A stretch of 57,798 bases of DNA from Chloroflexota bacterium (lineage in GTDB: Bacteria; Chloroflexota; Anaerolineae; CG2-30-64-16). The notes under the pieces were generated by a model, which saw only the letters and a program-made list of their open reading frames with translations, did no database searches and was not told the DNA's origin. A program made the translations under genes and the position numbers. Positions 16,170 to 57,066 of the stretch are shown here, piece after piece; within the stretch, counting starts at the first letter, position 1, and each line of letters begins with the position of its first letter. The stretch spans positions 1-57,798 of the forward strand of contig VGOD01000008.1 of assembly GCA_016876015.1 (NCBI GenBank), read 5' to 3'.

Positions 16170-16221
16170 GGATTCTCCCTTGAAAATAGGTAACGACGGA
16201 CTAAAGCGGGGCGAAAGCGGC

Positions 16222-16404
16222 CTGGCGTCCCTGTTCGGCTGGCTGGTGGGGATCGGCCCTGGCGCGGGCATGGGCCTGCTGATGGTCATCTGCGGCCTCG
16301 GCGGCATGCTGGTGGCTGGGGTCAGCGTCTTCGTGCCGGCCATCCGCAACGCCGAGGCGATCCTGCCCGATCACGACCAGCCGCCGCCGGCGGCCAGCCT
16401 TTGA
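16222..16404 (+). pseudogene. C-terminal fragment of an MFS transporter
   Basis: About 60 residues (LFGWLVGIGPGAGMGLLMVI, then a second half-helix and VPAIRNAEAILPDHDQPP) resemble the last transmembrane helix and cytoplasmic tail of major facilitator superfamily permeases, where a helix with GIGPGRG-like sequence precedes a P.LR..E..LPDH tail. Everything upstream is missing; the frame runs into the promoter region of the divergent rhamnosidase gene. An ATG at 16168 could open the frame, but a functional protein is unlikely. Assignment is from pattern only. Confidence 0.6.
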
Positions 16405-19311: not shown

Positions 19312-19385
19312 CGGGTTGCGTGATGGCAGTTGTGTGATGGCGCGGGATGAGGCGCAGTGGAACGGCGCTCTGGCAGACGCGTTGC

Positions 19386-19892: not shown

Positions 19893-22037
19893 ATGTCCAA
19901 GAAAGTGAAGCTCGATCGCCGTGGATTCCTGTTCGCCTCTGCCGCGAGTGTGGTCGGCGTGGCGCTCTCGGCGTGCGGCGCGACGCAGCCCGCCCCTGCT
20001 CCGGCGACTGCGGTCCCCACCAAAGCTCCCGCGCCAGCGACTCCCAAGGCGCCTGTCGCAGCAGCGGCCACTCCCACCACGGTCGTCACCGCGGTACCTG
20101 CTACGGCCGTCCCCACGGTGGCAGCCGTGGGCGGCGAAGCCCCCATGTTGGCCGAGCAGGTGAAGGCGGGCAAGCTGCCACCGCTCACCCAACGTCTGCC
20201 GGCAAAGTCTCTTGTGATTGCCCCGATCACCTCCATCGGTGAGTACGGCGGCACGATTCGGACTATCGTCAATGCCCAGGGTGCGCATTGGGTGATGGCC
20301 CAGTACGGAAATTCGCCGCTGAGATGGATTGACGATGGTTTCGGCATCATCCCCGGCATGATCGAGTCTTACTCGAGCAATGCCGATACCAGCGAGTGGA
20401 CCCTCAACTTCCGCAAGGGTCTCAAGTGGTCCGATGGCCAGCCATGCACGGTTGATGACGTGATTTTCTGGTGGAAAGATATGGTGGTGGATCCTGATCA
20501 ATCGGACGCGCCGCCTGAATGGGCCACCGCGGCCGGCAAGCTGGCCGAGTTCATCAAGATTGATGACTTTACCCTCAAGATCAAGTATGCTGGGCCGGCG
20601 CCGCTGACCGCCAGGCAGCTCGCCATGTGGCCGAAAGGCGGCACGGGGCCACGTTGGATTGTGCCGGCACACTATGTCAAGCAGTTTCACCCGAAACACA
20701 ACAGCCAATACAAGGATTTCAAGGAGTTCGACCAGAAGATCCTCTGGCGTCAGAATCCTGACTGTCCCACACTGACTGCCTGGCGTTGTGAGAAGTTCGA
20801 GCCGGGCGTCGTCAGGATGTGGGCGCGCAATCCTTACTACTACGCCGTAGACACCAAAGGGAATCAGTTACCCTACATTGACTACGTCGAAGAAAAGATG
20901 ATCGCAGACCCGGAGGCTCAGAAGCTGACGGTGATGCAGGGAGGCGTTGATTTCGCTTGCCACGGTTACAACATCTACCTGGCGGACGTGGCCACGTTGA
21001 AGCAGAACGAAGAGAAGGGCGGCTTCGAGGTCCGTCTATGGGATAGCGGCGATGGCACAGGGCGCATCATCTACCTGAATCACGACCATCCCGATGCGAA
21101 AGTGCGCGCTCTGTTCCGCAACCCCAAGTTCAAGCAAGCCCTCTCCTATGCCCATGACCGCGCGACGATCCAGAAGACGGTCTACTTCAACACTGGTATC
21201 CTGAGCACCGGCTCCTACAGCCCCAAGGCCATTGAGTTCAATTTCAACGATGAGGCCAAGAAGCAGTTCCAGAGGATTCGCGACGCGTATGTGCAATACG
21301 ATCCGGAGAAGGCCAAGAAGCTGCTCGATGAGATCGGCGTTAAGGACGTCAACAACGATGGTTGGCGCGAGATGCCCGACGGCACGAAGCTGGAAATGCG
21401 GGTAGATATTTCGGCGACTGCCACGTCCGACGGCCTCAAAGTGCTGGAGATGTTCAAGAAGACCTGGAACGGGATCGGCTTGAATGTCATCGTCAACCAG
21501 ATGCCGGCGACCGAGTTCGGCCTCTTCTGGCAAAGCGGCAAAGGGATGGTGCGTACCGACTGGGAGGTGGGTGACGGACCAGATCACTTTACCTTCATCG
21601 CCTGGCATACGCCGGCTGAGGCCACGCGTTGGGCCCCGCTGTCTGGTAACATGTGGTTGTTCCAGGGCACGGAAAAGGAGAAACAGGAAGCCGACAAGAC
21701 TCCCTGGGATCGGCAACCGCCTCGCTTCCTGCCTGCCGAGAAGGATCTGATCGGTGAAACGGTCCTGAAATTGCAGGATATCTCACGTCGGGCCATGCTC
21801 GAGGTTGACGAGGTCAAACGCCATGCGATGGCGTGGCAGATCTACGATGTCCACATCAACGAGGGCCCGTTCCTCATCGGTTGTGTCGCCAACATCCCGC
21901 GCGTCATTATCGTCAGCAAGAAGCTGGTCAATGTCCCTCAAAGGGAGCAGTTGAAGACCGGCGGCTTTGTGACGCCGTGGATCATGGTGTATCCGGGTAT
22001 CACGAATCCAGAGACCTACTATTACAAGAAGGCGTAG
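19893..22037 (+). CDS. ABC transporter substrate-binding lipoprotein, SBP family 5
   Basis: A 714-residue extracellular solute-binding protein of the peptide/oligosaccharide (family 5) type. The N-terminus KLDRRGFLFASAASVVGVAL with Cys28 in the lipobox LSAC suggests Tat-dependent export and lipid anchoring. It is followed by a Pro/Ala/Thr-rich linker (residues ~30-85). The binding-protein body contains the typical YGGTIRT and WTLNFRKGLKWSDGQP segments. RBS AGGAGGAATCAAC is strong. It is the first gene of the importer operon. Family 5 proteins bind peptides, nickel or oligosaccharides; the downstream GH172 genes favour an oligosaccharide here (inference). Confidence 0.92.
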   Translation: MSKKVKLDRRGFLFASAASVVGVALSACGATQPAPAPATAVPTKAPAPATPKAPVAAAATPTTVVTAVPATAVPTVAAVGGEAPMLAEQVKAGKLPPLTQRLPAKSLVIAPITSIGEYGGTIRTIVNAQGAHWVMAQYGNSPLRWIDDGFGIIPGMIESYSSNADTSEWTLNFRKGLKWSDGQPCTVDDVIFWWKDMVVDPDQSDAPPEWATAAGKLAEFIKIDDFTLKIKYAGPAPLTARQLAMWPKGGTGPRWIVPAHYVKQFHPKHNSQYKDFKEFDQKILWRQNPDCPTLTAWRCEKFEPGVVRMWARNPYYYAVDTKGNQLPYIDYVEEKMIADPEAQKLTVMQGGVDFACHGYNIYLADVATLKQNEEKGGFEVRLWDSGDGTGRIIYLNHDHPDAKVRALFRNPKFKQALSYAHDRATIQKTVYFNTGILSTGSYSPKAIEFNFNDEAKKQFQRIRDAYVQYDPEKAKKLLDEIGVKDVNNDGWREMPDGTKLEMRVDISATATSDGLKVLEMFKKTWNGIGLNVIVNQMPATEFGLFWQSGKGMVRTDWEVGDGPDHFTFIAWHTPAEATRWAPLSGNMWLFQGTEKEKQEADKTPWDRQPPRFLPAEKDLIGETVLKLQDISRRAMLEVDEVKRHAMAWQIYDVHINEGPFLIGCVANIPRVIIVSKKLVNVPQREQLKTGGFVTPWIMVYPGITNPETYYYKKA

Positions 22038-22122: not shown

Positions 22123-22249
22123 CTGCCTAGCCCCATTAAGGTGGGGCCAGGCAGAGTCTGCAAAAGGGGTTCTCAGGTGGCGCTGGCGCCCGAAAACCCC
22201 ACGAAAGTGTATGCTCCATTTCTCCCCTGCCGCAGCGGGGGAGAAATGG
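22123..22249. repeat. Two intercistronic hairpins between SBP and permease genes
   Basis: The 307-bp gap between the binding protein and first permease holds no gene but two strong inverted repeats. The first is 22123-22135 / 22142-22154 (12 of 13 pairs). The second is 22216-22227 / 22238-22249 (CCATTTCTCCCC and its exact complement, 10-nt loop). Neither is followed by a T run. Position suggests 3'-end protection of the binding-protein message, or attenuation of downstream genes. Confidence 0.8.
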
Positions 22250-22344
22250 GTCGGGGGATTGCAGGGGAACCTCTGCGTTACCCTGACACTACCGACGTTC
22301 CCCAGGGTGAGCCTTTCTACAGCCGAGCTGAAAAGGGGGCAGGT

Positions 22345-23328
22345 ATGCTGAGATACATCGCGCGCCGGGTCGGGAATATGGCGGTCACGATGGTATTCAT
22401 CATTATCCTCGGATTTATGATCATCGAGCTGCCGCCGGGATCCTATCTGGAGTTCGAGATCGAGCGCTTGCGTATGGCGGGCGGCAACGTCTACCAGGAT
22501 CAGATCGAAGCCCTCAAGAAGACCTATGGAGTTGATGATCCGATTCCGCTTAAGTTCTGGAAGTGGGTTTCCGGGTTTGTGCAGGGCGATTTTGGGTTTT
22601 CATTTGAGTATATGAAACCTGTCAAGGAGATCATTTGGGCGCGGCTGGGTTACACCATGATTATCTCTGTGCTGACGCTTCTCTTCAGTTGGACGGTCGC
22701 CATCCTCATCGGTGTTTATTCGGCGACCCATCGGTACACCCTCCCCGACTATGCCATCACCGTGATACAGTTTTTTGGCCTGTCGGTGCCTGCCTTCCTC
22801 TTGGCTCTGGTGCTGATGGTAATCGCCCAGCAGGTATTCGGCATGCAAGTGGTGGGGCTTTTCTCGGATCAGTATCGCGATGCGCCGTGGAGCCTGGCGA
22901 AGTTCATTGACTTCTTGGCACACGTGTGGATTCCCGTTGTCGTCATCGGTCTCAACGGCACCGCATGGGTCAGCCGCGTGATGCGTGGGAACCTGTTGGA
23001 TGTGCTCGGCATGCAATACGTGCAGACGGCGCGAGCCAAGGGGCTGGCTGAGCGAAAGGTGATCTGGAAACATGCGGTGCGCAATGCCCTGCATCCCTTG
23101 GTGATGGTGCTGGGCACCAGCCTGCCGGCCATCGTCTCCGGTGAAGTGATCGTGGCGACCGTGCTCAACCTCCCCACCAGCGGGCCGATCTATTTCCGGG
23201 CTTTGATCCAACAGGACATGTACCTGGCGGGAACCTTTCTGGTTTTCCTGGCGATCATCCTGCTGATCGGCAACCTGCTGGCCGATATCCTTCTGGCATG
23301 GCTCGACCCGCGCATCCAGTTCGAATGA
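22345..23328 (+). CDS. ABC transporter permease, DppB/OppB-like
   Basis: A 327-residue inner-membrane permease with about six transmembrane helices. The N-terminus MLRYIARRVGNMAVTMVFII is typical of the OppB family. The EAA coupling loop reads YVQTARAKGLAERKVIWKH followed by AVRNALHPLV. ATG at 22345 is preceded by AAAAGGGGG. Its N-terminal periplasmic loop is longer than in many DppB proteins. It pairs with the permease starting at 23357 (28-bp gap) to form the translocation channel. Confidence 0.92.
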   Translation: MLRYIARRVGNMAVTMVFIIILGFMIIELPPGSYLEFEIERLRMAGGNVYQDQIEALKKTYGVDDPIPLKFWKWVSGFVQGDFGFSFEYMKPVKEIIWARLGYTMIISVLTLLFSWTVAILIGVYSATHRYTLPDYAITVIQFFGLSVPAFLLALVLMVIAQQVFGMQVVGLFSDQYRDAPWSLAKFIDFLAHVWIPVVVIGLNGTAWVSRVMRGNLLDVLGMQYVQTARAKGLAERKVIWKHAVRNALHPLVMVLGTSLPAIVSGEVIVATVLNLPTSGPIYFRALIQQDMYLAGTFLVFLAIILLIGNLLADILLAWLDPRIQFE

Positions 23329-23356: not shown

Positions 23357-24508
23357 ATGACTGAAGTCTTGACCCCTGCAGCAACCGCGCCGGGCATGAT
23401 GCGTGAGCCGGTCAGTGAAGTCGGGCAGATGTCGCAATGGCAGCTTATGCGGCTGCGTTTTGCCCGTAATAAGCTGGCCATGACCGGTGTCGTAGGCCTC
23501 GTCGTGATGTATCTCCTGGTCGTGTTGGCGCCGTTCCTGGCCCCCAACGATTATACCTTTCAGAATTCGGATTACCTGTACGGTCCACCCAGTCCAGTCA
23601 CCTTTATCAACCCCGATGGGCGGTTGGGACTGCGTCCCTATACGTATGGCGTCACGACCGAGCTCGATGTAAAGAACTTCAAGTATGTGTTCGCCCTCGA
23701 TGAGACTCAAAAGATTCCCGTACACTTCTTCGTGCGTGGCGATCCCTATCAGATGCTCGGCTTCATCAAGTCGGACATCCATCTGTTCGGCATCGAGCCA
23801 CCGCAACGCCTCTATCCTTTTGGCGCGGATGACCTGGGGCGGTGTATGATGGCGCGTGTGCTGATGGGCGGCCAAATTTCGATGACCGTCGGTCTGCTCG
23901 GTGTAGCGTTGACGATCATCTTCGGCTCCCTGATGGGCGGCGCATCCGGCTATTTTGGCGGCGTGATAGATGATATCATGCAGCGCATCATCGAGATCAT
24001 CATGGCGTTCCCCACGATTCCTTTGTGGGCCGCGTTGGCCGCCGCCTTACCTGACATCTCCGGCAGTTTCACGGCCTTGCACCGCTACTTCCTGATTACC
24101 GTGATCCTCTCTCTGGTGAACTGGACGGGGTTGGCGCGGCAACTCCGGGCAAAGGTGATGTCCTATCGCCAGGCCGATTTCTGTCAGGCGGCGCTGGCGG
24201 CAGGCGCATCCGATGCCCGGATCATCATCCAACACATGATCCCCAATGCTGCCAGCCACATCATCGTCGTCGGGGCGCTGGCGATTCCCGGCATGATCCT
24301 GGGCGAGACCGCGCTGAGCTTCCTGGGCCTGGGTATCCTGCCACCTCTGGTCAGTTGGGGGTCGCTCCTGCGGGGCGCCACCCAGGTATCAGCGGTGATC
24401 CTGCACCCGTGGCTGATGATCCCCGGTCTTGGGGTCGTGCTGACCGTTCTTTTCTTCAGCTTCTTGGGCGATGGCCTGCGCGATGCCGTTGATCCCTATT
24501 CGATCTAG
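23357..24508 (+). CDS. ABC transporter permease, DppC/OppC-like
   Basis: A 383-residue permease, larger than typical DppC (~300) because of a periplasmic insert between the first and second helices (about residues 65-160). The N-terminal cytoplasmic segment MRLRFARNKLAMTGVVGLVV fits the OppC N-terminal domain, and the EAA loop reads FCQAALAAGASDARIIIQHM then IPNA. It is in the same operon as the preceding permease and the ATPases, 30 bp ahead of the ATG at 24539. Confidence 0.92.
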   Translation: MTEVLTPAATAPGMMREPVSEVGQMSQWQLMRLRFARNKLAMTGVVGLVVMYLLVVLAPFLAPNDYTFQNSDYLYGPPSPVTFINPDGRLGLRPYTYGVTTELDVKNFKYVFALDETQKIPVHFFVRGDPYQMLGFIKSDIHLFGIEPPQRLYPFGADDLGRCMMARVLMGGQISMTVGLLGVALTIIFGSLMGGASGYFGGVIDDIMQRIIEIIMAFPTIPLWAALAAALPDISGSFTALHRYFLITVILSLVNWTGLARQLRAKVMSYRQADFCQAALAAGASDARIIIQHMIPNAASHIIVVGALAIPGMILGETALSFLGLGILPPLVSWGSLLRGATQVSAVILHPWLMIPGLGVVLTVLFFSFLGDGLRDAVDPYSI

Positions 24509-24538
24509 TCAGGATGGGAGAAGGTGACAGGGGGAGCC

Positions 24539-25609
24539 ATGAGTGAGCAAGCGGCATCCGCCAGTGATGGTCGCGATGTGATTCTGCAGATCAGGGATCT
24601 GCACACCTACTTTTTTACCGATCTGGGCATCTCGCGCGCGCTGAACGGCGTCAGCCTGGATGTGCCGGCGGGCAAAGTGATGGGCGTGGTGGGCGAAAGT
24701 GGTTGCGGTAAGAGCATGACCGCGCTCTCAATTCTGCGCCTGGTACCTAAGCCGGGGCGCATCGTGCGCGGTGAGATCGTGCTGCACCGCAAACAGCAGC
24801 AGGGCGCCTCACAGGTCATCACCGAGGTCAAGCTCACCGATCTGCATCCCCAGGGGCGTGAGATTCGCAGCATCCGCGGGGATGAGATCGCCATGATCTT
24901 CCAGGAGCCGATGACCTCGCTGAATCCGTCGTACACGGTGGGCGACCAGATCATGGAGACGATCCTGCTGCACCAGCAGGTGGACCAGGTGGAGGCAGAG
25001 GCTCGCGCCGTGAAGATCCTCGATCAGGTCGGCATGCCAAACCCATCCTCGCTGATAAAGCGCTATCCCCACGAGCTCAGCGGGGGGATGCGACAGAGGG
25101 CCATGATCGCGATGGCTCTCTCGTGCACCCCCTCGATCCTGATCGCAGACGAACCGACCACAGCCCTGGACGTGACCACCGAGGCGCAAATCCTGGACCT
25201 GATGCGTGAGCTGCAGGCCGAGATCGGGATGACCATCCTCTACATCACACATAATCTGGGGGTTGTAGCGCAGATGTGCGACACGGTGGCAGTGATGTAT
25301 CTGGGTCGAGTGGTAGAACTGGCCACGGTTGATGCGCTTTTCTATGATCCCCGGCATCCATATGCCAAAGCCCTGTTGCGCTCTATCCCGCACGTGGGCA
25401 GCCGCACCAAGGCGCGTCTGGAACCAATCCGCGGGGTCGTGCCTGATCCCTACACGACCGTAGCCGGTTGTCCGTTTCACCCGCGCTGTGACATGATCCG
25501 GCCCGGCGTCTGCGATGTGCGTGTGCCGACTCTGACAGCCGTGACAGACGAACACTCGGTGCGTTGCTTCCTGTACTCTGACCAGGCGGAAGAAAACCAT
25601 GAAGGCTAA
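24539..25609 (+). CDS. Oligopeptide/oligosaccharide ABC transporter ATPase, OppD/DppD-like
   Basis: A 356-residue ATP-binding subunit. Walker A GESGCGKS, Q-loop FQEPMTSLNP, signature LSGGMRQRAMIAMAL, Walker B ILIADEPTTALD and the H-loop THNLG are all visible. The C-terminal oligopeptide-transporter region has the Cys-containing motif GCPFHPRC. ATG at 24539 follows AGGGGGAGCC; an upstream GTG at 24524 is less likely. It overlaps the next ATPase gene by 11 bp. Confidence 0.95.
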   Translation: MSEQAASASDGRDVILQIRDLHTYFFTDLGISRALNGVSLDVPAGKVMGVVGESGCGKSMTALSILRLVPKPGRIVRGEIVLHRKQQQGASQVITEVKLTDLHPQGREIRSIRGDEIAMIFQEPMTSLNPSYTVGDQIMETILLHQQVDQVEAEARAVKILDQVGMPNPSSLIKRYPHELSGGMRQRAMIAMALSCTPSILIADEPTTALDVTTEAQILDLMRELQAEIGMTILYITHNLGVVAQMCDTVAVMYLGRVVELATVDALFYDPRHPYAKALLRSIPHVGSRTKARLEPIRGVVPDPYTTVAGCPFHPRCDMIRPGVCDVRVPTLTAVTDEHSVRCFLYSDQAEENHEG

Positions 25610-26627
25610 CCTCAGTCATAACGAGTTACTGCTTGACATCAAGGGCCTTAAGAAGTATTTCCCAATTCGCCAGGGGCTGCTGCGACGAGGGGCCGGCGCG
25701 GTGAAAGCCGTGGACGGCATTGATTTCTTTGTGCGTCAAGGCGAAACGCTGGGTCTGGTGGGCGAGAGCGGCTGCGGCAAAACGACGGCAGGGCGCACAA
25801 TCATGCGTCTCCTTGCACCAACTGCCGGAGAAATCCGCTTCAATGATCCGAACCTGGGCTGGGTGAACCTGGAAAGGATGTCGCGCCAGGAACTGCTGAA
25901 GGTGCGCCCCAACATGCAGATCATCTTCCAGGATCCATTCTCCTCGCTGGACCCGCGCATGACAGTGCAAAGGATCGTGGCCGAGCCCTTGGTGATTAAC
26001 CGCGTGGCGCACGGCCAGGAGCTAAGAGATCGCGTCGCCGATTTGCTGCAGGTAGTCGGGATGCGGCCGGAGTATATGAGCCGCTATCCCCACGCCTTCA
26101 GCGGCGGCCAACGGCAACGATTGGGGATCGCCCGCGCTCTGGCATTGAACCCGAAGCTGATCGTCTGCGATGAACCGGTATCGGCGTTGGATGTCTCGAT
26201 CCAGGCGCAGGTGCTCAATCTACTTGAGGACTTGCAAGCGCAGTTCAACCTGACCTACGTCTTCATCGCGCACGATCTGAGCGTAGTCGAGCATATCTCC
26301 GATCGAGTCGCGGTCATGTACGTGGGCAAGCTGGTCGAGTTGGCCGACACGGATAAGTTGTACTATCATCCTAAACACCCCTATACCGAGGCGCTGATGG
26401 CGGCCCTGCCCAAGCCAGACCCGCGACATCGCGATCGGCCGATCCGGCTGCCCGGCGAAGTGGCCAGCGCAGCGAACCCGCCCTCTGGCTGCTATTTCCA
26501 TCCTCGCTGCCGTTACGCGCAGGCGCAGTGCACCCAAGAGACGCCGCAGCTCCGGGAGATCAGCGCGGGGCATTGGGTGAGCTGTCATCTGGCGGGTGAT
26601 TTACAGTTGAGAGGGGTGCTGGGGTAG
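25599..26627 (+). CDS. Oligopeptide/oligosaccharide ABC transporter ATPase, OppF/DppF-like
   Basis: A 342-residue ATP-binding subunit that would heterodimerise with the preceding OppD-like protein. Walker A GESGCGKTT, Q-loop FQDPFSSLDPRM, signature FSGGQRQRLGIARAL, Walker B LIVCDEPVSALD, H-loop AHDLSVVEHI, and the C-terminal CYFHPRCRYAQ. Its start overlaps the end of the previous gene by 11 bp, implying translational coupling. A hairpin begins at its stop codon. Confidence 0.95.
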   Translation: MKANLSHNELLLDIKGLKKYFPIRQGLLRRGAGAVKAVDGIDFFVRQGETLGLVGESGCGKTTAGRTIMRLLAPTAGEIRFNDPNLGWVNLERMSRQELLKVRPNMQIIFQDPFSSLDPRMTVQRIVAEPLVINRVAHGQELRDRVADLLQVVGMRPEYMSRYPHAFSGGQRQRLGIARALALNPKLIVCDEPVSALDVSIQAQVLNLLEDLQAQFNLTYVFIAHDLSVVEHISDRVAVMYVGKLVELADTDKLYYHPKHPYTEALMAALPKPDPRHRDRPIRLPGEVASAANPPSGCYFHPRCRYAQAQCTQETPQLREISAGHWVSCHLAGDLQLRGVLG

Positions 26628-26745: not shown

Positions 26746-27840
26746 ATGGCAAAGGGTTACAACGGTCTGGGCCTAAGCCTGGGCACGCTGTCGTTGTTGT
26801 CGAACGCCAAGACGCGCTCGATCAGCCCGGAGAATTTCACCGGCGAGAAGGGCAAGGGCGGCATGGCGACCGAAGGCACGGGTGCGGCCCGGGCGCGGGA
26901 TCTCGGCCAGGGCTGGAAGATCTCCCCTTCGATCCGCATCGCGGCCGGCCAGACGTTCGAGCTGGCGAACATCGCCGGCCCCGGCGCCATCCAGCACATC
27001 TGGATGACCCCGACGGGAAACTGGCGCTTCAACATCCTGCGCATCTATTGGGATGGCTCCGATACACCGGCTGTGGAATGTCCGGTGGGCGATTTCTTCG
27101 CCTCTGCCTATGGCCGCTATGCCCAGATCTCCTCGCTGGCAGTCTGCGTCAATCCGCGCAGCGGCCTCAACTGCTATTGGGAGATGTCCTTCCGCAAGGC
27201 ATGTCGGATCACCATGACCAACATCGCCAACGAAGATATGGTGCTCTACTACCAGATTGATTATACGTTGACGGACGTGCCGGACAATGCGGCCTATTTC
27301 CACGCCCAATTCCGGCGCACTAACCCCTTGCCTTACAAGCAAGTCTATACCATCCTGGACGGTGTGCAGGGACAGGGGCACTTCGTCGGCGCCTACATGG
27401 CCTGGGGGGTCAACAACTGCGGCTGGTGGGGCGAAGGGGAGATCAAGTTCTACATTGACGGCGACGAATGGCCGACGATCTGCGGCACCGGGACCGAAGA
27501 CTACTTCTGCGGTTCCTATGACTTCGATCTGGGCAAGGAGAACGGCGGCTATCGCGAATTCACCACGCCTTACGCGGGTCTCTCGCAGGTGATCCGCCCC
27601 GACGGGCTGTACGACTCGCAGACGCGCTTCTCCATGTATCGCTGGCACATCATGGACCCGATCCGCTTCGAGCAGGATCTGCGGGTGACAATCCAGGCGC
27701 TTGGCTGGCGCGGCTCGCGCACCGATCGCCAATATCTGCCGCTGCAGGATGACATCGCCTCGGTGGCCTTCTGGTATCAGACGCTGCCGGCCGCGCCATT
27801 CCCCAAGCTGCCGGATCGTGACTATCTGGAGATCATCTGA
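26746..27840 (+). CDS. GH172 / DUF2961 glycoside hydrolase, paralogue 1
   Basis: A 364-residue DUF2961 protein, the family now classed as GH172. Characterised members act on alpha-D-fructofuranosides or alpha-D-arabinofuranosides, and the related fold forms hexamers resembling viral capsid jelly rolls. Conserved-looking segments: FTGEKGKGGMATEG, WGVNNCGWWGEGEIKFYIDG and CGTGTEDYFCGSYDF, with acidic residues suited to catalysis. No signal peptide, so it likely acts on imported sugars. Start: ATG at 26746 after AAGGAGAGG. The stop overlaps the start of a close paralogue by one base (TGATG). Substrate is inferred only from family. Confidence 0.9.
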   Translation: MAKGYNGLGLSLGTLSLLSNAKTRSISPENFTGEKGKGGMATEGTGAARARDLGQGWKISPSIRIAAGQTFELANIAGPGAIQHIWMTPTGNWRFNILRIYWDGSDTPAVECPVGDFFASAYGRYAQISSLAVCVNPRSGLNCYWEMSFRKACRITMTNIANEDMVLYYQIDYTLTDVPDNAAYFHAQFRRTNPLPYKQVYTILDGVQGQGHFVGAYMAWGVNNCGWWGEGEIKFYIDGDEWPTICGTGTEDYFCGSYDFDLGKENGGYREFTTPYAGLSQVIRPDGLYDSQTRFSMYRWHIMDPIRFEQDLRVTIQALGWRGSRTDRQYLPLQDDIASVAFWYQTLPAAPFPKLPDRDYLEII

Positions 27841-28925
27841 TGTTCAATGGGTTGGGCATGAACCTGGGTACCCTGGCCCGGCTCTCGAACGCCAGGACGC
27901 GTTCGATCAGCGCCGAGAACTTTACCGGCGAGAAGGGCAAGGGCGGCATGGCTACCGAGGGCCAAGGGGCTGCCGCGGCGCGTGACCTGGGCCAGGGTTG
28001 GAAGGTGTCGCCGAGCGTGCCAGTGGAGCCTGGGCAGACATACGTCGTGGCCGACATCGCAGGGCCGGGCGCGATTCAACACATGTGGCTGAGCGGCGAC
28101 TTGGCGCGCAAGGGGCCGTTGGCCCGCAACTACATCGTGCGCATCTACTGGGACGGGCAGGAGCAGCCGTCGGTCGAGTGCCCGGTGGCCGACTTCTTCG
28201 CGTGCGGCTGGGGCCAGTATGCGCAGGTGAACTCGCTGCCGGTGGCCGTCAACCCCAATCGCGGCTACAACTGCTTCTGGGAGATGCCCTTCCGCAAGCG
28301 CTGCCTGATCACGCTCGAAAACCGGCACACAGACCCGATCCGGTTCTATTACCAGGTCGATTACACGCTCACCGACGTGGGTGCTGACCTGGCCTATTTC
28401 CATGCCCAGTTCCGGCGTACCAATCCGCTGCCCTACATGCAGCCCTACACCATCCTGGAGGGCGTGCGCGGAAAGGGGCAATACGTCGGCACAGCCATGT
28501 CCTGGGGGGTCAACAACAACGGTTGGTGGGGCGAAGGCGAGATCAAGTTCTACATTGATGGCGACCGGGACTTCCCCACGATCTGCGGCACCGGCACCGA
28601 GGACTACTTCGGCGGGGCGTACAACTGGGACGTTGATGGGCAGTACGTGCCCTACTCGACCCCCTTCATGGGGATGCACCAGGTCATCCGGCCCGATGGT
28701 CTCTACAAGGCCCAGCAGCGGTTCAGCATGTACCGGTGGCACATCATGGACCCGATCCGCTTCGAGGAGGATTTAAGCGTAACGATCCAGGCGTTGGGGT
28801 GGCGTGATGGTCGGCGTTACTTGCCGCTCCAGGACGACATCGCGTCGGTCGCCTACTGGTATCAGACGCTGCCGACCGCGGCCTTCCCGACGCTACCGAG
28901 CAAAGACTACCTCGAGATCATCTGA
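27840..28925 (+). CDS. GH172 / DUF2961 glycoside hydrolase, paralogue 2
   Basis: A 361-residue protein very similar to the preceding gene over its whole length: both have NLGTL/SLGTL, TRSIS, FTGEKGKGGMATEG, WGVNN.GWWGEGEIKFYIDG and CGTGTEDYF. It starts at the TGATG junction with no separate RBS, so it is probably translated by coupling. Differences cluster around the YN/YD loop after CGTGTEDYF and at residues ~85-100, where this copy has an extra segment. The two may form mixed oligomers or split substrate range (inference). Confidence 0.9.
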   Translation: MFNGLGMNLGTLARLSNARTRSISAENFTGEKGKGGMATEGQGAAAARDLGQGWKVSPSVPVEPGQTYVVADIAGPGAIQHMWLSGDLARKGPLARNYIVRIYWDGQEQPSVECPVADFFACGWGQYAQVNSLPVAVNPNRGYNCFWEMPFRKRCLITLENRHTDPIRFYYQVDYTLTDVGADLAYFHAQFRRTNPLPYMQPYTILEGVRGKGQYVGTAMSWGVNNNGWWGEGEIKFYIDGDRDFPTICGTGTEDYFGGAYNWDVDGQYVPYSTPFMGMHQVIRPDGLYKAQQRFSMYRWHIMDPIRFEEDLSVTIQALGWRDGRRYLPLQDDIASVAYWYQTLPTAAFPTLPSKDYLEII

Positions 28926-29291
28926 ATGGAAGGCCGTTCACCAGGCTGCGGACTGACGCTGGCGCAGGTCGCAGCCTGGCTCTCATCCTCTGCACTTGTC
29001 TTGACGGACATTCTGCTCGTGCGCGGAGCGCTGCTCAGCGTGCTGACTTGGCTTGGCGCTCGGCAGGGGCACGCGCCGACATCCTATAGCCAGTTCGGCT
29101 GGACGCTTGAATTCGTGGATCGCGCGCTGCTGTTGATCCTGGGCTGTGTCGGGATCGGGCTGGCCGTGGGGCTGGAATACTACTACCGCCGGGGAGCCGA
29201 GACGGGCGACTTGGCCCGGCGGGCGATTCGCGGTCTGGGCAGCCTGCTCGCCGTGGGTCTGGCGGCTCTAGCGTTGCAGTTGGCGTTCTAG
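28926..29291 (+). CDS. Small membrane protein, unknown function
   Basis: A 121-residue protein with three hydrophobic segments (about residues 12-43, 65-88 and 103-120). Its ATG directly follows the stop codon of the second GH172 gene (TGAATG), suggesting co-translation. I recognise no family. Position at the end of the importer/GH172 operon suggests a role in membrane organisation of that system, or simple read-through expression. Confidence 0.65.
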   Translation: MEGRSPGCGLTLAQVAAWLSSSALVLTDILLVRGALLSVLTWLGARQGHAPTSYSQFGWTLEFVDRALLLILGCVGIGLAVGLEYYYRRGAETGDLARRAIRGLGSLLAVGLAALALQLAF

Positions 29292-29321: not shown

Positions 29322-29347
29322 GTAGTAACGACTTCAGTCGTTACTAC
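29322..29347. repeat. Perfect hairpin GTAGTAACGACT / AGTCGTTACTAC
   Basis: Arms of 12 bp separated by 2 nt, downstream of the small membrane protein gene. The sequence type is a known dispersed palindrome in several bacterial phyla. Only one copy is seen in this window. Confidence 0.85.
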
Positions 29348-29385: not shown

Positions 29386-29419
29386 AACAGACCGGGGGCG
29401 CTCATGCCTCCGGTCTGTT
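29386..29419. terminator. Terminator-like hairpin between convergent genes
   Basis: Arms 29386-29399 and 29406-29419 pair at 13 of 14 positions (AACAGACCGG core). It lies between the end of the importer operon (+) and the stop of the hypothetical gene at 29424 (-), so it could end transcription from both sides. No T run follows on either strand. Confidence 0.5.
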
Positions 29420-29985: not shown

Positions 29986-31269
29986 ATGAAATGCGGAGCG
30001 AGTCAGGTATCCATCACACCGCCTGTCGGCATCGAGCTGTCCGGTTATGCAGCTCGTATTCAGCCTTCTGTCGGCCTGTATGACGATCTTTACGTGCGCG
30101 GCCTCTTCCTGGAAGCGGGCGCCGAGAAGCTGCTCTGGTTGCACGCCGATCTGATCGGCTTCGACCACGCATGGACATGCGCGTTGCGCACCGCGCTGGC
30201 CGCCGAGCTGCGGCTGGAACCCCGGCAGATCCTCTTCAGCGCAACCCATACCCACGCGGGCCCAGCCACGGTCACGACCCTGCGCGAGACCGGCGCCGTG
30301 GATGCGGGCTATCTGGCCGGGCTGCCAGACCGGTTCCATCAGGCCGCACTGGCAGCCGCGGCGCAGCCCGCGGTCACGACGCTCGAATGTGGAAGGGGAA
30401 TGTGCTACCTGGCGGCCGACCGCCGCCCCCTCAGTCCGCATTCGCACATGGATCCCGCGCTCCCCCTCCTGGCCTGGCGTAAGGAAGACGGCGACTACGT
30501 CGCCGTCCTCGTAAACTATGCCATGCACAACACGACGCTCGGTCCCGACAACCGGCGCATCTCCGGCGACGCGGCGGGCGCGGCCGCAACTCTGATCGCC
30601 CAACGCTTTCCCGGCTGCCCGCCCGTCCTGTTCACCAATGGCGGCTGCGGCAACGTCAACCCGCCCGCGCAGACGCCTGACTATCGCGTGGTCGAGCAGT
30701 TCGGCCAACGGCTTGCCAATTCGGTCGTGTACACGGCCAAGACGAGCGCTGTGCGGTTTCCCGATGCTGGCCTGGCGAGCGCCCAGGAGACCCTCGATCT
30801 GCCCCTGGCGATGATGACGCCGGCTGAGGTCGAGCAGGAGTACGAACGAGCGATCGCCGAGTGCGTTCCTGGCGTGCTCTTCTGGGAGAGGGCGCGGCGG
30901 GCCTATGACGTGTGGCACGCTGAGGCGTTGGCGGCCCTGGCCGCCGGCCGCGCGGCTACTCAGGTTACGACCGATCTGCAGGTCGTGCGGATCGGCCCGG
31001 CCCGTTTCGCGGCGATCGGCGGCGAGGTGTTCTCGCGCCTGGCCACCGATGTGCGGGCGGCCTGCGGTCCACACGTCTATGTGGTCGGCTACGCCAACGG
31101 CGACATCGGTTATCTGCCGCCGCGAGAGGTCTACGCGGAGGGCGGCTACGAAGTGGACATGGCCTACAAGTTCTACGGCGGCAATTTCATGGTCGCCGCG
31201 GGCGGTTTCGAGCTGCTGCGCGATCGTGCGATCGCACTCCTGCACGAGATGAAAGCCTCTGGCGGGTGA
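29986..31269 (+). CDS. Neutral/alkaline ceramidase N-terminal-domain hydrolase
   Basis: A 427-residue protein of the neutral ceramidase-like superfamily. Visible: QVSITPPVGIELSGY at the N-terminus, SATHTHAGP (zinc-binding His pair in ceramidases), VNYAMHNTTLGPDN and FTNGGCGNVNPP. It lacks a signal peptide and the C-terminal Ig-like domain of true ceramidases, which argues against a secreted sphingolipid hydrolase. Bacterial homologues are mostly uncharacterised, so an amide substrate is only a guess. RBS GGGAGATCAAGAAC. Divergent from the hypothetical gene at 29424. Confidence 0.82.
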   Translation: MKCGASQVSITPPVGIELSGYAARIQPSVGLYDDLYVRGLFLEAGAEKLLWLHADLIGFDHAWTCALRTALAAELRLEPRQILFSATHTHAGPATVTTLRETGAVDAGYLAGLPDRFHQAALAAAAQPAVTTLECGRGMCYLAADRRPLSPHSHMDPALPLLAWRKEDGDYVAVLVNYAMHNTTLGPDNRRISGDAAGAAATLIAQRFPGCPPVLFTNGGCGNVNPPAQTPDYRVVEQFGQRLANSVVYTAKTSAVRFPDAGLASAQETLDLPLAMMTPAEVEQEYERAIAECVPGVLFWERARRAYDVWHAEALAALAAGRAATQVTTDLQVVRIGPARFAAIGGEVFSRLATDVRAACGPHVYVVGYANGDIGYLPPREVYAEGGYEVDMAYKFYGGNFMVAAGGFELLRDRAIALLHEMKASGG

Positions 31270-39105: not shown

Positions 39106-39120
39106 CTGATGGAGCGTTGC

Positions 39121-39888
39121 ATGACCAACACGACCCTGGATCTGATCCGTTCCCACGGTTCGGTCCGCCGCTACAAGCCCGATCCGGTCCCCATCGAGAT
39201 GACGGAGGCGATCGTGGCCGCAGCGCAGCGGGCTTCCACATCATCCAACCTGCAAGTCGTCAGCGTCGTGGCAGCGACCGACCCCGCAGTGCGCGAACAT
39301 CTCTCTGCGATCTGCGCCAACCAGCAGCACGTGGCCCAGGCGCCGCTCTTTCTGACCTGGTGCGCCGACCTGGCGCGACTCGATCGCGCCTGCGAGCTGC
39401 GCGGCTATACCCAGTCCACCGATTACGTCGAGAGTTTCCTGGTCGCCGCCCTCGATGTGGGGATCGCGGCCCAGAACGCCGCGCTGGCCGCGGAGTCGTT
39501 GGGATTGGGCATCTGCTACATCGGCAGCCTGCGCAACGATGCCCAGGCGGTGATCGAGCTGCTCAAGCTCCCCCGGCTGGTCTTCCCGATCGTCGGCATG
39601 ACGGTGGGCTGGCCAGTCGAAGAGCCGCGCGTGCGCCCACGTCTGCCCCTCTCTGCGGTCCTGCACTGGGGCGTCTACGATCCACAGCCCAAGGATGCCG
39701 AGCTGGCCGAATACGACAGGGTGATGGCGGCCACCGGCATCTACGAAGGCCGCCAGGTTCCCGTCCCCGGCCGGCCCGGCGAGCTGGAAGACTACGGGTG
39801 GACCGAGCACTCGGCGCGGCGTGCAGCGCAGGCATTACGCACCGATCTTCGCGAGGCGCTCAGGCAACAGGGGTTTGGACTCAGATAA
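39121..39888 (+). CDS. NfsA-like NADPH-dependent nitroreductase/flavin reductase
   Basis: A 255-residue FMN oxidoreductase of the NfsA/FRP type. SVRRYKPDPVP binds FMN phosphate; AAESLGLGICYIGSLRNDAQ and VFPIVGMTVGWPVEEPRVRPRLP is the family's signature central region (read in two pieces). ATG at 39121 follows GGAGCGTTGC; an ATG at 39109 is possible. It differs from the shorter nitroreductase at 12530. Its stop is 38 bp before the restriction-modification gene, which appears to have entered just downstream. Confidence 0.92.
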   Translation: MTNTTLDLIRSHGSVRRYKPDPVPIEMTEAIVAAAQRASTSSNLQVVSVVAATDPAVREHLSAICANQQHVAQAPLFLTWCADLARLDRACELRGYTQSTDYVESFLVAALDVGIAAQNAALAAESLGLGICYIGSLRNDAQAVIELLKLPRLVFPIVGMTVGWPVEEPRVRPRLPLSAVLHWGVYDPQPKDAELAEYDRVMAATGIYEGRQVPVPGRPGELEDYGWTEHSARRAAQALRTDLREALRQQGFGLR

Positions 39889-39926
39889 GGCAGAAAGCCC
39901 AGGGTGTGGAGCTCAGACCGACCGAC

Positions 39927-53599: not shown

Positions 53600-55111
53600 T
53601 CATCCGGCCGTTGCGGTCAGCTTGCAAAATTCCGCGTACGCTTCCTCCCACGCGGCCGCATCCTGCGGCTGATAGGTCTCGGCGGCGCACGAGCGGCGCA
53701 CGAGGGTGCGGCCTTCGGCCAGCGAGCCGATGGCGCCGGTGGCGAGCAGTTGCATCAGCAGATTGCCGACCGCGGTCGCCTCGAACGGCCCCGCGATGAC
53801 CGGCCGGCCGATGGCGCTGGCGGTGAACTGGTTGAGTAACCGGTTCTGCGCACCGCCCCCGACGATGTGCAGCACGCTCACGCGGCGGCCCATCAGCGTC
53901 TCCATCATTGCCAGCACGCGGCGATATTTCAGCGCCAGGCTTTCATAGACCACGCGGGCAATCTCGCCGGCGCCCGCCGGCACGGTTTGGTCGGTGCGCC
54001 GGCAGAATTCGCGCACGCGGGCCGGCATATCGCCCGGCGCCAGGAAGTCGTGCGCGTCCACGTCAATCTGCGCGACGAATGGCTGCGCTTCGGCTGCATG
54101 GCGCACGATGTCATCCCACGAAAGCGCCTGTCCCTCGGCCGCCCATGTGCGCCGGCACTCCTGGATGATCCACAGCCCGGCGATGTTTTTCAGCAGCCGA
54201 ATCGTGTCGCAAACGCCCCCTTCGTTCGTCACGTTGAACGCCAGCGCCGTCTCGTTGATGATCGGTTTGGGGATCTCCACCCCCATCAGCGACCAGGTGC
54301 CAGAGCTGAGGTAGGCGTAGTCGGCGCTTTCGGCGGGCACGGCCGCGACCGCGCTGGCCGTGTCATGGCTGCCGGGCGTCACAACCTGCACGCCCTTTGC
54401 GCCGGTTTCTTCGATCACGGCCGGCAGCAGGCCGCCCAACATCGTCCCGGCCTCAACGATCCGCGGTAGATAGTGCGTCGGGATGCCCAGCCGCGCCAGC
54501 AGCCCCGTCGCCCAGATCGGCCGGCGCGGATCGAGCGCCTGGCTGGTGCTGGCGATGGTCCGTTCGCTCACCTTCTGCCCGGTGAGCCAAAAGTTCAGCA
54601 GGTCAGGCAGCATCAGGAGCGTGCGCGTGCGGGCCAGCACTTCGGGGTCTTCGATCTGCTGGGCGAGGAGTTGGAAGAGGGTGTTCAGTTGCATGAACTG
54701 GATGCCGGTGGCGGCGAAGATCTCCTCGCGCGGCACGCGGCGGAACGCTTCGGCCATCATCGTATCGTTGCGACTGTCGCGATAGTGATAGGGCAGGCCG
54801 ACGAGCCGGTCGTTGCGGTCGAGCAGGCCATAGTCCACGCCCCAGGTGTCAATCCCCAGGCTGACGATCCCTGAGCCTGCCGAAGGGCCGCAGCAGGCGA
54901 CGGCCTTTTTCAGCCCCTCCTGGATCTCGACGAACAGGCGCAGCGTGTCCCAGTGCAGGCTGTCCCCGCGACTGCTGGGGATGTGGATCGGACCGTTGGC
55001 GAAGCGGTGGACTTCCTCCAACGCCAGCCGCTCGCCGTCGAACCGGCCGATGATCGCCCGCCCCCCGGACGCGCCGAGGTCGAAGGCGAGGTAGTTGCGG
55101 GTGTGGGTCAT
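53600..55111 (-). CDS. rhaB: Rhamnulokinase (FGGY family)
   Basis: A 503-residue sugar kinase. LAFDLGASGGRAIIGRFDG is the N-terminal phosphate loop, GIDTWGVDYGLLD the substrate side, YLSSGTWSLMGVEIPKP the hallmark of rhamnulokinases, and HIVGGGAQNRLLNQFTASAI the ATP-binding C-terminal domain. It phosphorylates L-rhamnulose to the 1-phosphate (possibly L-fuculose also). ATG at 55111 after CCGGAGAG. A repeat-derived SAGSG is inserted in frame near residue 75-80. It sits downstream of the isomerase gene, separated by a MITE-like element. Confidence 0.93.
   Translation of the reverse strand: MTHTRNYLAFDLGASGGRAIIGRFDGERLALEEVHRFANGPIHIPSSRGDSLHWDTLRLFVEIQEGLKKAVACCGPSAGSGIVSLGIDTWGVDYGLLDRNDRLVGLPYHYRDSRNDTMMAEAFRRVPREEIFAATGIQFMQLNTLFQLLAQQIEDPEVLARTRTLLMLPDLLNFWLTGQKVSERTIASTSQALDPRRPIWATGLLARLGIPTHYLPRIVEAGTMLGGLLPAVIEETGAKGVQVVTPGSHDTASAVAAVPAESADYAYLSSGTWSLMGVEIPKPIINETALAFNVTNEGGVCDTIRLLKNIAGLWIIQECRRTWAAEGQALSWDDIVRHAAEAQPFVAQIDVDAHDFLAPGDMPARVREFCRRTDQTVPAGAGEIARVVYESLALKYRRVLAMMETLMGRRVSVLHIVGGGAQNRLLNQFTASAIGRPVIAGPFEATAVGNLLMQLLATGAIGSLAEGRTLVRRSCAAETYQPQDAAAWEEAYAEFCKLTATAG
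54869..54887. repeat. In-frame CCCTGAGCCTGCCGAAGGG repeat inside rhaB
   Basis: Differs by one base from the motif in the rhamnosidase gene (14888-14917). It encodes PSAGSG on the minus strand, in a surface-loop-like position. Confidence 0.8.
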
Positions 55112-55174
55112 GGTGTACTCTCCGGGGAAACAAGGAAACAAGTAGACAAGGAAACAAGTAGCACGGTTATACGC

Positions 55175-55311: not shown

Positions 55312-57030
55312 CTACTTCCTACCCAACATCAACTTCGCTGCGTTCTCCCCGCCATTCGCCAGATACAGCAGCGGGATGGGCCGATCAACGCCCTCGACGA
55401 AGCGCGGGCGCGCGGCCCAGTCGCAGACCGAGAGCACATTGTTCAGATCCATCCAGTATTCCAGCCGCGCGGGGCTGAGGCCCTGGATCATGTGGAGGTG
55501 GTTGGCCGGTGGGTAGTGCTTGTATTCGTACATCGTGGCGTACTTGGGCACGACGAAGGTGTGCGGCCATGCTGCGGTCGTTGCCTGGCAAAGGGCGGTC
55601 GCCATCGGCTCCGGCACGTCGGCGGTGGCGGCCTCGTCCCAGCTCATGGCGAACATGCCGGAGAGGCTGCTGTACATCAAGCGGCCGGCGATCCCTTCCA
55701 GCCCGCCCGGTGAGACGAACGTGACCGAGTTACCCATGCCAGGGAAATAATCAGGATCGGCCAGCGGCATGCTGACCTGCGCCATGATCTCGTCCACGCT
55801 GGCGCCCGGCTGCGCGGCCCAGTCGAACGACGCGCTGCCGGAGTTGTCGCCATCCACGAGGCCCTTCTCGGCCCAGGCTTCGCCCTTCGGCAGGGTGACA
55901 CCCAGTTTCTTTGCCAACGCTTGCAGTTCCCACGGCTCCCACACCTTGCGGAAGTCCATGAAGAGGGGCGGCGCGCCGCCGGTGAGGGACGAGAAGAAGA
56001 TCATTGTCAAGAGCGCCTGCACGTCCGCTTCGGTGGCGAACGGCAGCGGGATCTTCGGCCCGTTGTGATCGAACGAGGAGTTGAAGAACGACTCCATCGC
56101 ATCGGCGACGGGGAGCGGGATGCCGCGCAGGTCGGAACCCCATTCGAGCTGGCTCATGAAGCCGCCGCCGATGGCGTCCAGATCCTTGAGCAGGTCGCGC
56201 GTGATGAGATAGAGCGCCAGGCTTTGGTCGAAGCGGCCGGAATCCACTTCATCACGCAGGACGAGCCGTTTGCCCAGGTGACCGTCCACGAAGCCGCGCA
56301 GCGCCTTGAGTTCCTCGGCTTTGTACGCCTTCTTGGCGAGCATGTCGGCCAGCAGCTTCATGTCGAGCCGGGTGATCTCGATGCCGAACTGCTTGCGCGT
56401 GGGGATGATGTGCGCCAGCGCGGTCTCCATCCCCATCGAGTCGTGGCCGAAGACGACGACGCGGCGGCCCTTGAGCGCCTGGGTGGTGACGGCGGCCGCG
56501 GCCCAGTCCACGAGCGCGTCGGCGGTGCCCCCGGTCATCTGGGGGGTGAGGCCGGTGTCGGGCCAGGTGCCGACGTTGAGGTGCGTCAGCCGGCCATACT
56601 GCATGATCGCGCCGTTGACCGCGTGCGCGAAGACGACGCCCGGCTTCGGCCCGCTGTTGCCGCAGGTGAAGTTGATCGGCGTGTCGGCCCCGAACTGCGA
56701 CAGCAGCGAGATCACGCTGAGCTGCGGGAACGCCCAGGTATCGGGCGCGCAGACCAGCGCCTTAACGCCGGCGTCCTGGAACTGCTTGGCGACCGCGTCG
56801 GCCTGCGGTTCGCCGTCCACTAGCGTCGGCGCCCACACGACCTTGGCGGCCGAGCCGTCGGGCAGCTTGACCCGCGCAGCCAGCACGTCTGCCACCATTC
56901 TGCAGATATTCTGGCAGCGTTCGCGACTGGCCGCGTCGATCCGCGGATCACCCGCGACGAAGACGCCGATCGCCGGCGCGTTGCGTTGGAGAGTACCCAT
57001 TGCTTCTGAGAGTGCGATGGCTTTGCCCAT
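55312..57030 (-). CDS. L-fucose/L-arabinose isomerase-fold sugar isomerase
   Basis: A 572-residue isomerase similar in length and order to L-fucose isomerase. Metal ligands correspond well to E. coli FucI: Glu334 in FATEADVQAL, Asp359 in FMDFRKVWEPWEL and His511 in PPANHLHM. It interconverts an aldose and ketose (L-fucose, D-arabinose, or possibly L-rhamnose given the adjacent rhaB). ATG at 57030 after GGAGGAATCC. The upstream toxin gene ends 36 bp away on the same strand. Confidence 0.88.
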   Translation of the reverse strand: MGKAIALSEAMGTLQRNAPAIGVFVAGDPRIDAASRERCQNICRMVADVLAARVKLPDGSAAKVVWAPTLVDGEPQADAVAKQFQDAGVKALVCAPDTWAFPQLSVISLLSQFGADTPINFTCGNSGPKPGVVFAHAVNGAIMQYGRLTHLNVGTWPDTGLTPQMTGGTADALVDWAAAAVTTQALKGRRVVVFGHDSMGMETALAHIIPTRKQFGIEITRLDMKLLADMLAKKAYKAEELKALRGFVDGHLGKRLVLRDEVDSGRFDQSLALYLITRDLLKDLDAIGGGFMSQLEWGSDLRGIPLPVADAMESFFNSSFDHNGPKIPLPFATEADVQALLTMIFFSSLTGGAPPLFMDFRKVWEPWELQALAKKLGVTLPKGEAWAEKGLVDGDNSGSASFDWAAQPGASVDEIMAQVSMPLADPDYFPGMGNSVTFVSPGGLEGIAGRLMYSSLSGMFAMSWDEAATADVPEPMATALCQATTAAWPHTFVVPKYATMYEYKHYPPANHLHMIQGLSPARLEYWMDLNNVLSVCDWAARPRFVEGVDRPIPLLYLANGGENAAKLMLGRK

Positions 57031-57066
57031 GAGGATTCCTCCGCGGTAGATAGGTTGCACGAGCCT

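Follow-up and report, generated by a model that had tools for sequence, protein, structure and literature searches.

Two adjoining GH172 genes, called A and B here, belong to different branches of their family, are joined by a stop/start overlap and stand behind a complete importer of the Opp/Dpp type in the window analysed (the whole stretch of 57,798 nucleotides, from a Chloroflexota bacterium). The run of genes is probably an operon for the breakdown of short oligosaccharides or glycosides with a terminal alpha-D-arabinofuranose or close furanoside. It is an ordinary sugar-use locus of a known kind, and the uncommon part of it is the pairing of two GH172 branches.

The coupled gene pair

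26746..27840, + strand: GH172 copy A, 364 aa, PF11175/DUF2961
27838..27842, + strand: TGATG stop/start overlap of A and B, read from the sequence
27840..28925, + strand: GH172 copy B, 361 aa, PF11175/DUF2961

The start of A is preceded by AAGGAGAGGATATC, and the one base common to its stop TGA (27838-27840) and the start ATG of B (27840-27842) yields the TGATG. In a profile search both proteins cover the whole of PF11175 (E 3.7e-93 for A and 3.7e-97 for B), and they are 71% identical, so the two highly similar, overlapping DUF2961/GH172 genes of the initial annotation are borne out. The divergence between them (dN 0.23 against a dS of about 1.06) indicates purifying selection on both copies and, taken with the profile scores, a pair that is real and maintained rather than a chance one. 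The clade motif of A reads GTGTEDYFCGSY[N/D] and that of B GTGTEDYFGGAY[N/D]W. No secretion signal is apparent at the N-terminus of either protein, and NCBIfam returned no name for them. GC3 is 0.82 in A and 0.87 in B, and lower, 0.73 to 0.76, in the transporter genes.

The importer ahead of the pair

19893..22037, + strand: SBP_bac_5 solute-binding lipoprotein, 714 aa from its probable start (PF00496, E 5.7e-56)
22141..23328, + strand: OppB/DppB-type permease (PF00528, PF19300)
23357..24508, + strand: OppC/DppC-type permease (PF00528, PF12911)
24524..25609, + strand: OppD-type ATPase (PF00005, PF08352)
25599..26627, + strand: OppF-type ATPase (PF00005, PF08352)

The set is complete, with a solute-binding protein (SBP), two permeases and two ATPases with oligo_HPY ends, and it lies ahead of the pair on the same strand, just as the initial annotation had it. 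The reading frame of the SBP opens at 19347, and a Tat-like (twin-arginine) RRGFLF signal peptide followed by an LSAC lipobox puts the start probably at about 19893. Proteins of this SBP family also bind peptides and metals. The best solved relatives are 5IPW, which is merely named a putative oligopeptide-binding protein, then pectin-binding SPH1118 and an alpha-galactoside-binding protein, with the classic OppA/DppA proteins behind; the peptides-only kinship that the initial annotation had seen as fatal to sugar import is not what is found. SPH1118 of Sphingomonas sp. A1 is a family-5 (cluster C) saccharide SBP (PMC9314435) that scores 193 bits against the SBP here; its ligand is pectin, and the likeness is one of sequence family only. 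Such relatives are compatible with a saccharide ligand without proving one.

It is possible, though on the whole doubtful, that the importer carries peptides (or something else), has no functional tie to the GH172 genes and is a mere neighbour of theirs. Roseiflexaceae and others have orthologous SBP-BCDF sets without GH172 (identity of about 45% for the SBP and up to 74% for OppF), the gap between OppF and A measures 118 bp, and the GC3 of A and B stands above that of the transporter genes. Against this, all the genes share a strand and a terminator scan found no terminator-like site in the OppF-A gap, the SBP is nearest to saccharide-binding members among its relatives of known ligand, and DUF2961 genes are often found near solute-binding proteins and ABC transporters (PMC8812541). 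In L130, a relative in the same family, a GH172 gene sits between two Opp-type permease pairs, which is a weak parallel. GH172 relatives are mostly without an importer of the Opp/Dpp type. Since orthologous importers elsewhere lack GH172, and the source genome has many paralogous SBPs, the functional link between importer and pair is drawn from one locus. Reading the importer substrate from the context of its orthologues was tried and is uninformative. In the reading preferred here the importer would take up a sugar that is also the substrate of A and B.

Active site and predicted fold

GH172 active sites sit between subunits, with a Tyr donated by the neighbour (PMC8605356, PMC10509167). In alphaFFase1 the residues are W267, E270 (acid/base), E291 (nucleophile), D292, W298 and, from the adjacent subunit, Y187 (PMC8605356). 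Alignment to the characterised enzymes gives copy A E230 as predicted acid/base, E251 as predicted nucleophile, D252 and Y168 as trans Tyr, and gives copy B E232, E254, D255 and Y170. The acid/base Glu motif WWGEG and the nucleophile Glu-Asp motif GTGTED are kept in both, as is the family Trp (W267 in alphaFFase1), and so the loss of catalytic Glu/Asp residues from both copies, with which the sugar reading of the initial annotation would have fallen, has not occurred.

The surroundings of the −1 subsite are less conserved. The Trp there (W298 of alphaFFase1, W252 of ExoMA1) aligns with Tyr258 in A and Tyr261 in B, and the N253 site of ExoMA1, which is Gly299 in alphaFFase1, with D259 in A and N262 in B; Asn253 of ExoMA1 is said to exclude fructofuranose (PMC10509167). 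The loop flanking the subsite is altered in A (CGSYD). Given the Trp to Tyr change in both copies and the altered loop of A, specificity may differ from that of ExoMA1, and because the Trp252 site is kept in neither copy and the Asn253 site in B alone, A and B are not classed here as proven ExoMA1-type enzymes.

A model of A (pLDDT 72.6, pTM 0.80) predicts the double jelly-roll fold, and a structure search places 8IC8 first (TM-score 0.87, 57% identity), followed by alphaFFase1, 4KQ7, 8AH3 and then viral double jelly-roll capsid proteins, a likeness of the family fold that is already published (PMC8812541). The model of B is too poor to use (pLDDT 50), and the same fold is presumed for B from its 71% identity to A.

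Nearest characterised enzymes and likely substrate

Nearly full-length matches to ExoMA1 (8IC8) are the best solved ones of A and B, at 446.6 and 449.2 bits, with alphaFFase1 far behind at 143 bits for A and 139 for B, and this lead makes D-arabinofuranosides the likely substrate. In a tree rooted on alphaFFase1, in which long branches are noted, A, B and ExoMA1 come together within the main clade, and alphaFFase1 and 4KQ7 stand apart. As far as sequence can tell, the most likely role of A and B is to remove D-arabinose units from sugars that have been imported. The initial annotation had named furanosides as the substrate class, which agrees with the match to ExoMA1; the difructose anhydrides that it had in mind fit poorly with alphaFFase1 as a distant relative.

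ExoMA1 (MIAR_33200, PDB 8IC8) is the GH172 exo-alpha-D-arabinofuranosidase of Microbacterium arabinogalactanolyticum and has been proposed to work inside the cell following ABC import. It has in common with A and B full-length similarity, the double jelly-roll, the catalytic Glu pair, the trans Tyr, the lack of a secretion signal and an ABC importer in the locus, and B also keeps its specificity Asn. It differs in its Trp252, which is Tyr in A and B, and in N253, which is Asp in A, and its cluster carries GH183 and GH116 genes, whereas here there are two coupled GH172 genes in a genome without GH183. alphaFFase1 (BBDE_2040, PDB 7V1V), the difructose dianhydride I synthase/hydrolase of Bifidobacterium dentium, is like A and B in family, fold, catalytic residues and nearby importer genes, but unlike them in scoring about 140 bits, in having Gly299 in place of Asp (A) or Asn (B), and in its long C-terminal helix, for which A and B lack about 90 residues. 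PUL42 of Dysgonomonas gadei, a D-arabinan polysaccharide utilisation locus of a Bacteroidota, resembles the present locus in holding more than one GH172 gene (three, DgGH172a-c, together with GH183), but is without a coupled pair behind an Opp-type importer.

Action on a furanoside other than D-arabinofuranose, be it an alpha-fructofuranoside or the glycan portion of an amide- or lipid-linked glycoside, seems rather unlikely. The Tyr at the −1 subsite of both copies, the Asp of A at the N253 site, the genome without GH183 and a ceramidase-like gene that recurs beside GH172 in several lineages, the source lineage included, would all suit it; the bits to ExoMA1 are three times those to alphaFFase1, however, and homologues of a GH116 exo-beta-D-arabinofuranosidase are present in the source genome. 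D-arabinofuranosides are therefore kept as the preferred substrate, and the genes that could go with their use are as follows.

53600..55141, − strand: FGGY kinase of the L-fuculose/rhamnulose kinase kind, possibly a D-ribulose kinase (closest solved proteins FucK at 337 bits and RhaB at 319 bits)
55312..57060, − strand: L-fucose/D-arabinose isomerase-like protein (PF07881, PF07882)
C54:7979-10294 of the source genome (G000), − strand: GH116 protein L122, nearest to ExoMA2 and not to beta-glucosidases
C10:1-1161 of the source genome (G000): GH116 protein L123, nearest to ExoMA2 and not to beta-glucosidases

The isomerase-like protein is a divergent member (nearest solved L-fucose isomerase at 93 bits and D-arabinose isomerase at 82 bits). 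It and the kinase are encoded on the same contig as the pair, on the opposite strand and about 25-26 kb away, outside the operon; by sequence D-arabinose would suit them, though so would L-fucose or L-rhamnose, and an alpha-L-rhamnosidase gene lies at 13209-16349 of the same contig. The two GH116 genes are likewise outside the GH172 locus, and their proteins are nearest to the exo-beta-D-arabinofuranosidase ExoMA2 (8IC6; 367 vs 52 and 245 vs 35 bits). A profile search found no GH183 endo-D-arabinanase in the 98%-complete source genome. The same model matches 16 of 400 genomes of the phylum, in two of them with GH172 adjoining, and GH172 is present in 9 of these 16 and in 90 of the remaining 384 (Fisher p 0.006). 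The organism looks like a user of short D-arabinofuranosides and not a full arabinan degrader.

Several further genes came to light. GH172 and GH183 lie side by side or at most 7 kb apart in further genomes of the phylum, at G035:C149, G053:C362 and G031:C120, which are candidate D-arabinan clusters. After a third GH172 of the source genome (L121:9620-10747, on C26 of G000; 31% identical) come genes for a BNR-repeat (sialidase-like) protein and a glycyl-radical enzyme. At 39117-42434 (+ strand) of the window a single long ORF, a putative fusion, combines an Eco57I-type methylase match with both BsuBI/PstI restriction endonuclease domains at its end.

Subunit assembly

By family precedent a trimeric unit with an intersubunit active site would be expected for A and for B, and each has its trans Tyr. 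That A and B form an obligate hetero-oligomer, with mixed trimers in which an A and a B subunit together make each site, is improbable. The neighbour's Tyr in the intersubunit sites of GH172 (PMC8605356, PMC10509167), a translational coupling that favours co-assembly and the 71% identity of the two would make it conceivable, but relatives of A and of B occur as single genes in other genomes, and the GH172 assemblies compared from the literature are homo-oligomers. As each copy keeps both catalytic Glu residues and the trans Tyr, neither needs the other for a complete site. Two separate, homotrimer-based enzymes are the reading preferred here.

Origin and rarity of the pair

The main tree holds 48 GH172 proteins, and a larger quick tree was also built; the trees left out the characterised DgGH172a-c, NocGH172 and MycGH172. 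B groups with L031, L033 and L038 (98/90), which come from three further genomes of the phylum and are single-copy there. That phylum is taken to be Chloroflexota, since a protein from its group f62 is all but identical to one from a named Roseiflexaceae genome. The clade of A spans Armatimonadota, Chloroflexota, Bacillota, Lentisphaerota, Myxococcota, Pseudomonadota, Ignavibacteriota and others, and an Armatimonadota protein resembles A more (79% identity) than B does (71%). Other members of both clades occur as single genes, which goes against the "duplicated pair" of the initial annotation. A topology that makes sisters of A and B loses 45 log units, and its AU p of 0.023 is a weak rejection near the threshold.

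It is on these grounds very unlikely that the two genes are an ordinary tandem duplication of recent date, retained for dosage. Although A and B adjoin on one strand at 71% identity, and partial gene conversion could account for the raised identity at their ends (about 80% over 60 aligned residues at the start and 70 or so at the end), the tree placement in separate clades, the AU test and the dS of about 1 all tell against it. Wholesale gene conversion between A and B was also considered and set aside, the identity profile showing no clear conversion tract for all that the ends are more alike. From the sequences, two GH172 branches that came to lie together, or else a very old duplication, account for the pair better than a newly made tandem copy would.

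GH172 is present in 99 of the 400 genomes of the phylum, yet two full copies adjacent on the same strand were found in none of them besides the source genome; G251 has a convergent pair of fragments at the end of a contig, and no same-strand pair was found in the other nine genomes of the order. Two of 80 loci from other genomes have an A-clade gene and then a distant GH172 on the same strand; these loci were ranked by similarity to A, so that B-like pairs could be under-sampled, and many of their contigs are short.

L051:503-2823: A-clade gene and distant GH172, same strand (Bacillota)
L074:4330-6842: A-clade gene and distant GH172, same strand (Lentisphaerota)

The two pairs are independent and suggest that pairing of different GH172 branches arose more than once. 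At L126 a 31-residue GH172-like match, within a short ORF, lies just upstream of a relative of B. The A-clade loci (L041-L120) are about 66-79% identical to A across many phyla and mostly hold lone genes without conserved neighbours, and among the neighbours of GH172 relatives the commonest cluster, oxidoreductase-like by eye, appears in just 14 of 106 loci. No characterised member of this widespread clade was found among the solved structures and literature searched. It would be a long shot to take A for a member of an uncharacterised cross-phylum clade (identity about 70-80%) with a Cys-Gly-Ser-Tyr −1 subsite, no conserved neighbours and a substrate other than D-arabinan, coupled to B of another clade so that mixed trimers with hybrid sites gain a specificity that neither has alone.

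Downstream of the pair

28926..29291, + strand: 121-aa ORF with three hydrophobic stretches by hydropathy, its start abutting the stop of B (TGAATG)
29387..29418, + strand: strong inverted repeat ACAGACCGGGGGC...GCCTCCGGTCTGT, past the final coupled ORF

With the stop of B abutting the start of the 121-aa ORF, the coupled run may be three genes long, and this ORF may be the last gene of the operon; it has no Pfam family and no homologue in the loci searched. Strong hairpins lie at 29322 and 29387. The latter is without a T-tract and hence was missed by the terminator scan, and from its sequence the inverted repeat at 29387..29418 is a possible end of the transcription unit.

About 1.1 kb past B, at 29986-31269 (+ strand), there is a gene for a neutral/alkaline ceramidase N-terminal-domain protein, probably in a separate transcription unit. 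In at least three other lineages (loci L129, L132, L154, L130, L128 and L083) ceramidase-like genes share a strand with a neighbouring GH172, at distances of 256 bp to 3.6 kb. With two such genes in all of the 6.5 Mb source genome, the recurrence is suggestive.

Proposed function and its meaning

In the mechanism proposed for the catabolic operon, the Opp/Dpp-type importer would bring the compound in, and A and B, acting as cytoplasmic exo-enzymes, would free the terminal furanose by anomer-retaining hydrolysis, as the family literature has it. Each would probably be homotrimer-based, with its active site between two subunits as is known for GH172. As A and B are of different GH172 branches and have D259 and N262 respectively at the specificity site, each probably takes its own linkage or sugar, and the TGATG overlap would keep their amounts matched. 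Released D-arabinose could then enter metabolism by way of the isomerase and kinase whose genes lie at the contig's far end.

If this is right, D-arabinofuranoside use gains a lineage outside Actinomycetota and Bacteroidota, and the locus would offer a natural, coupled pair from two clades of GH172 with which to probe the intersubunit site and the effects of Trp/Tyr and Asn/Asp on specificity. The locus draws attention, too, to the widespread GH172 clade in which A falls.
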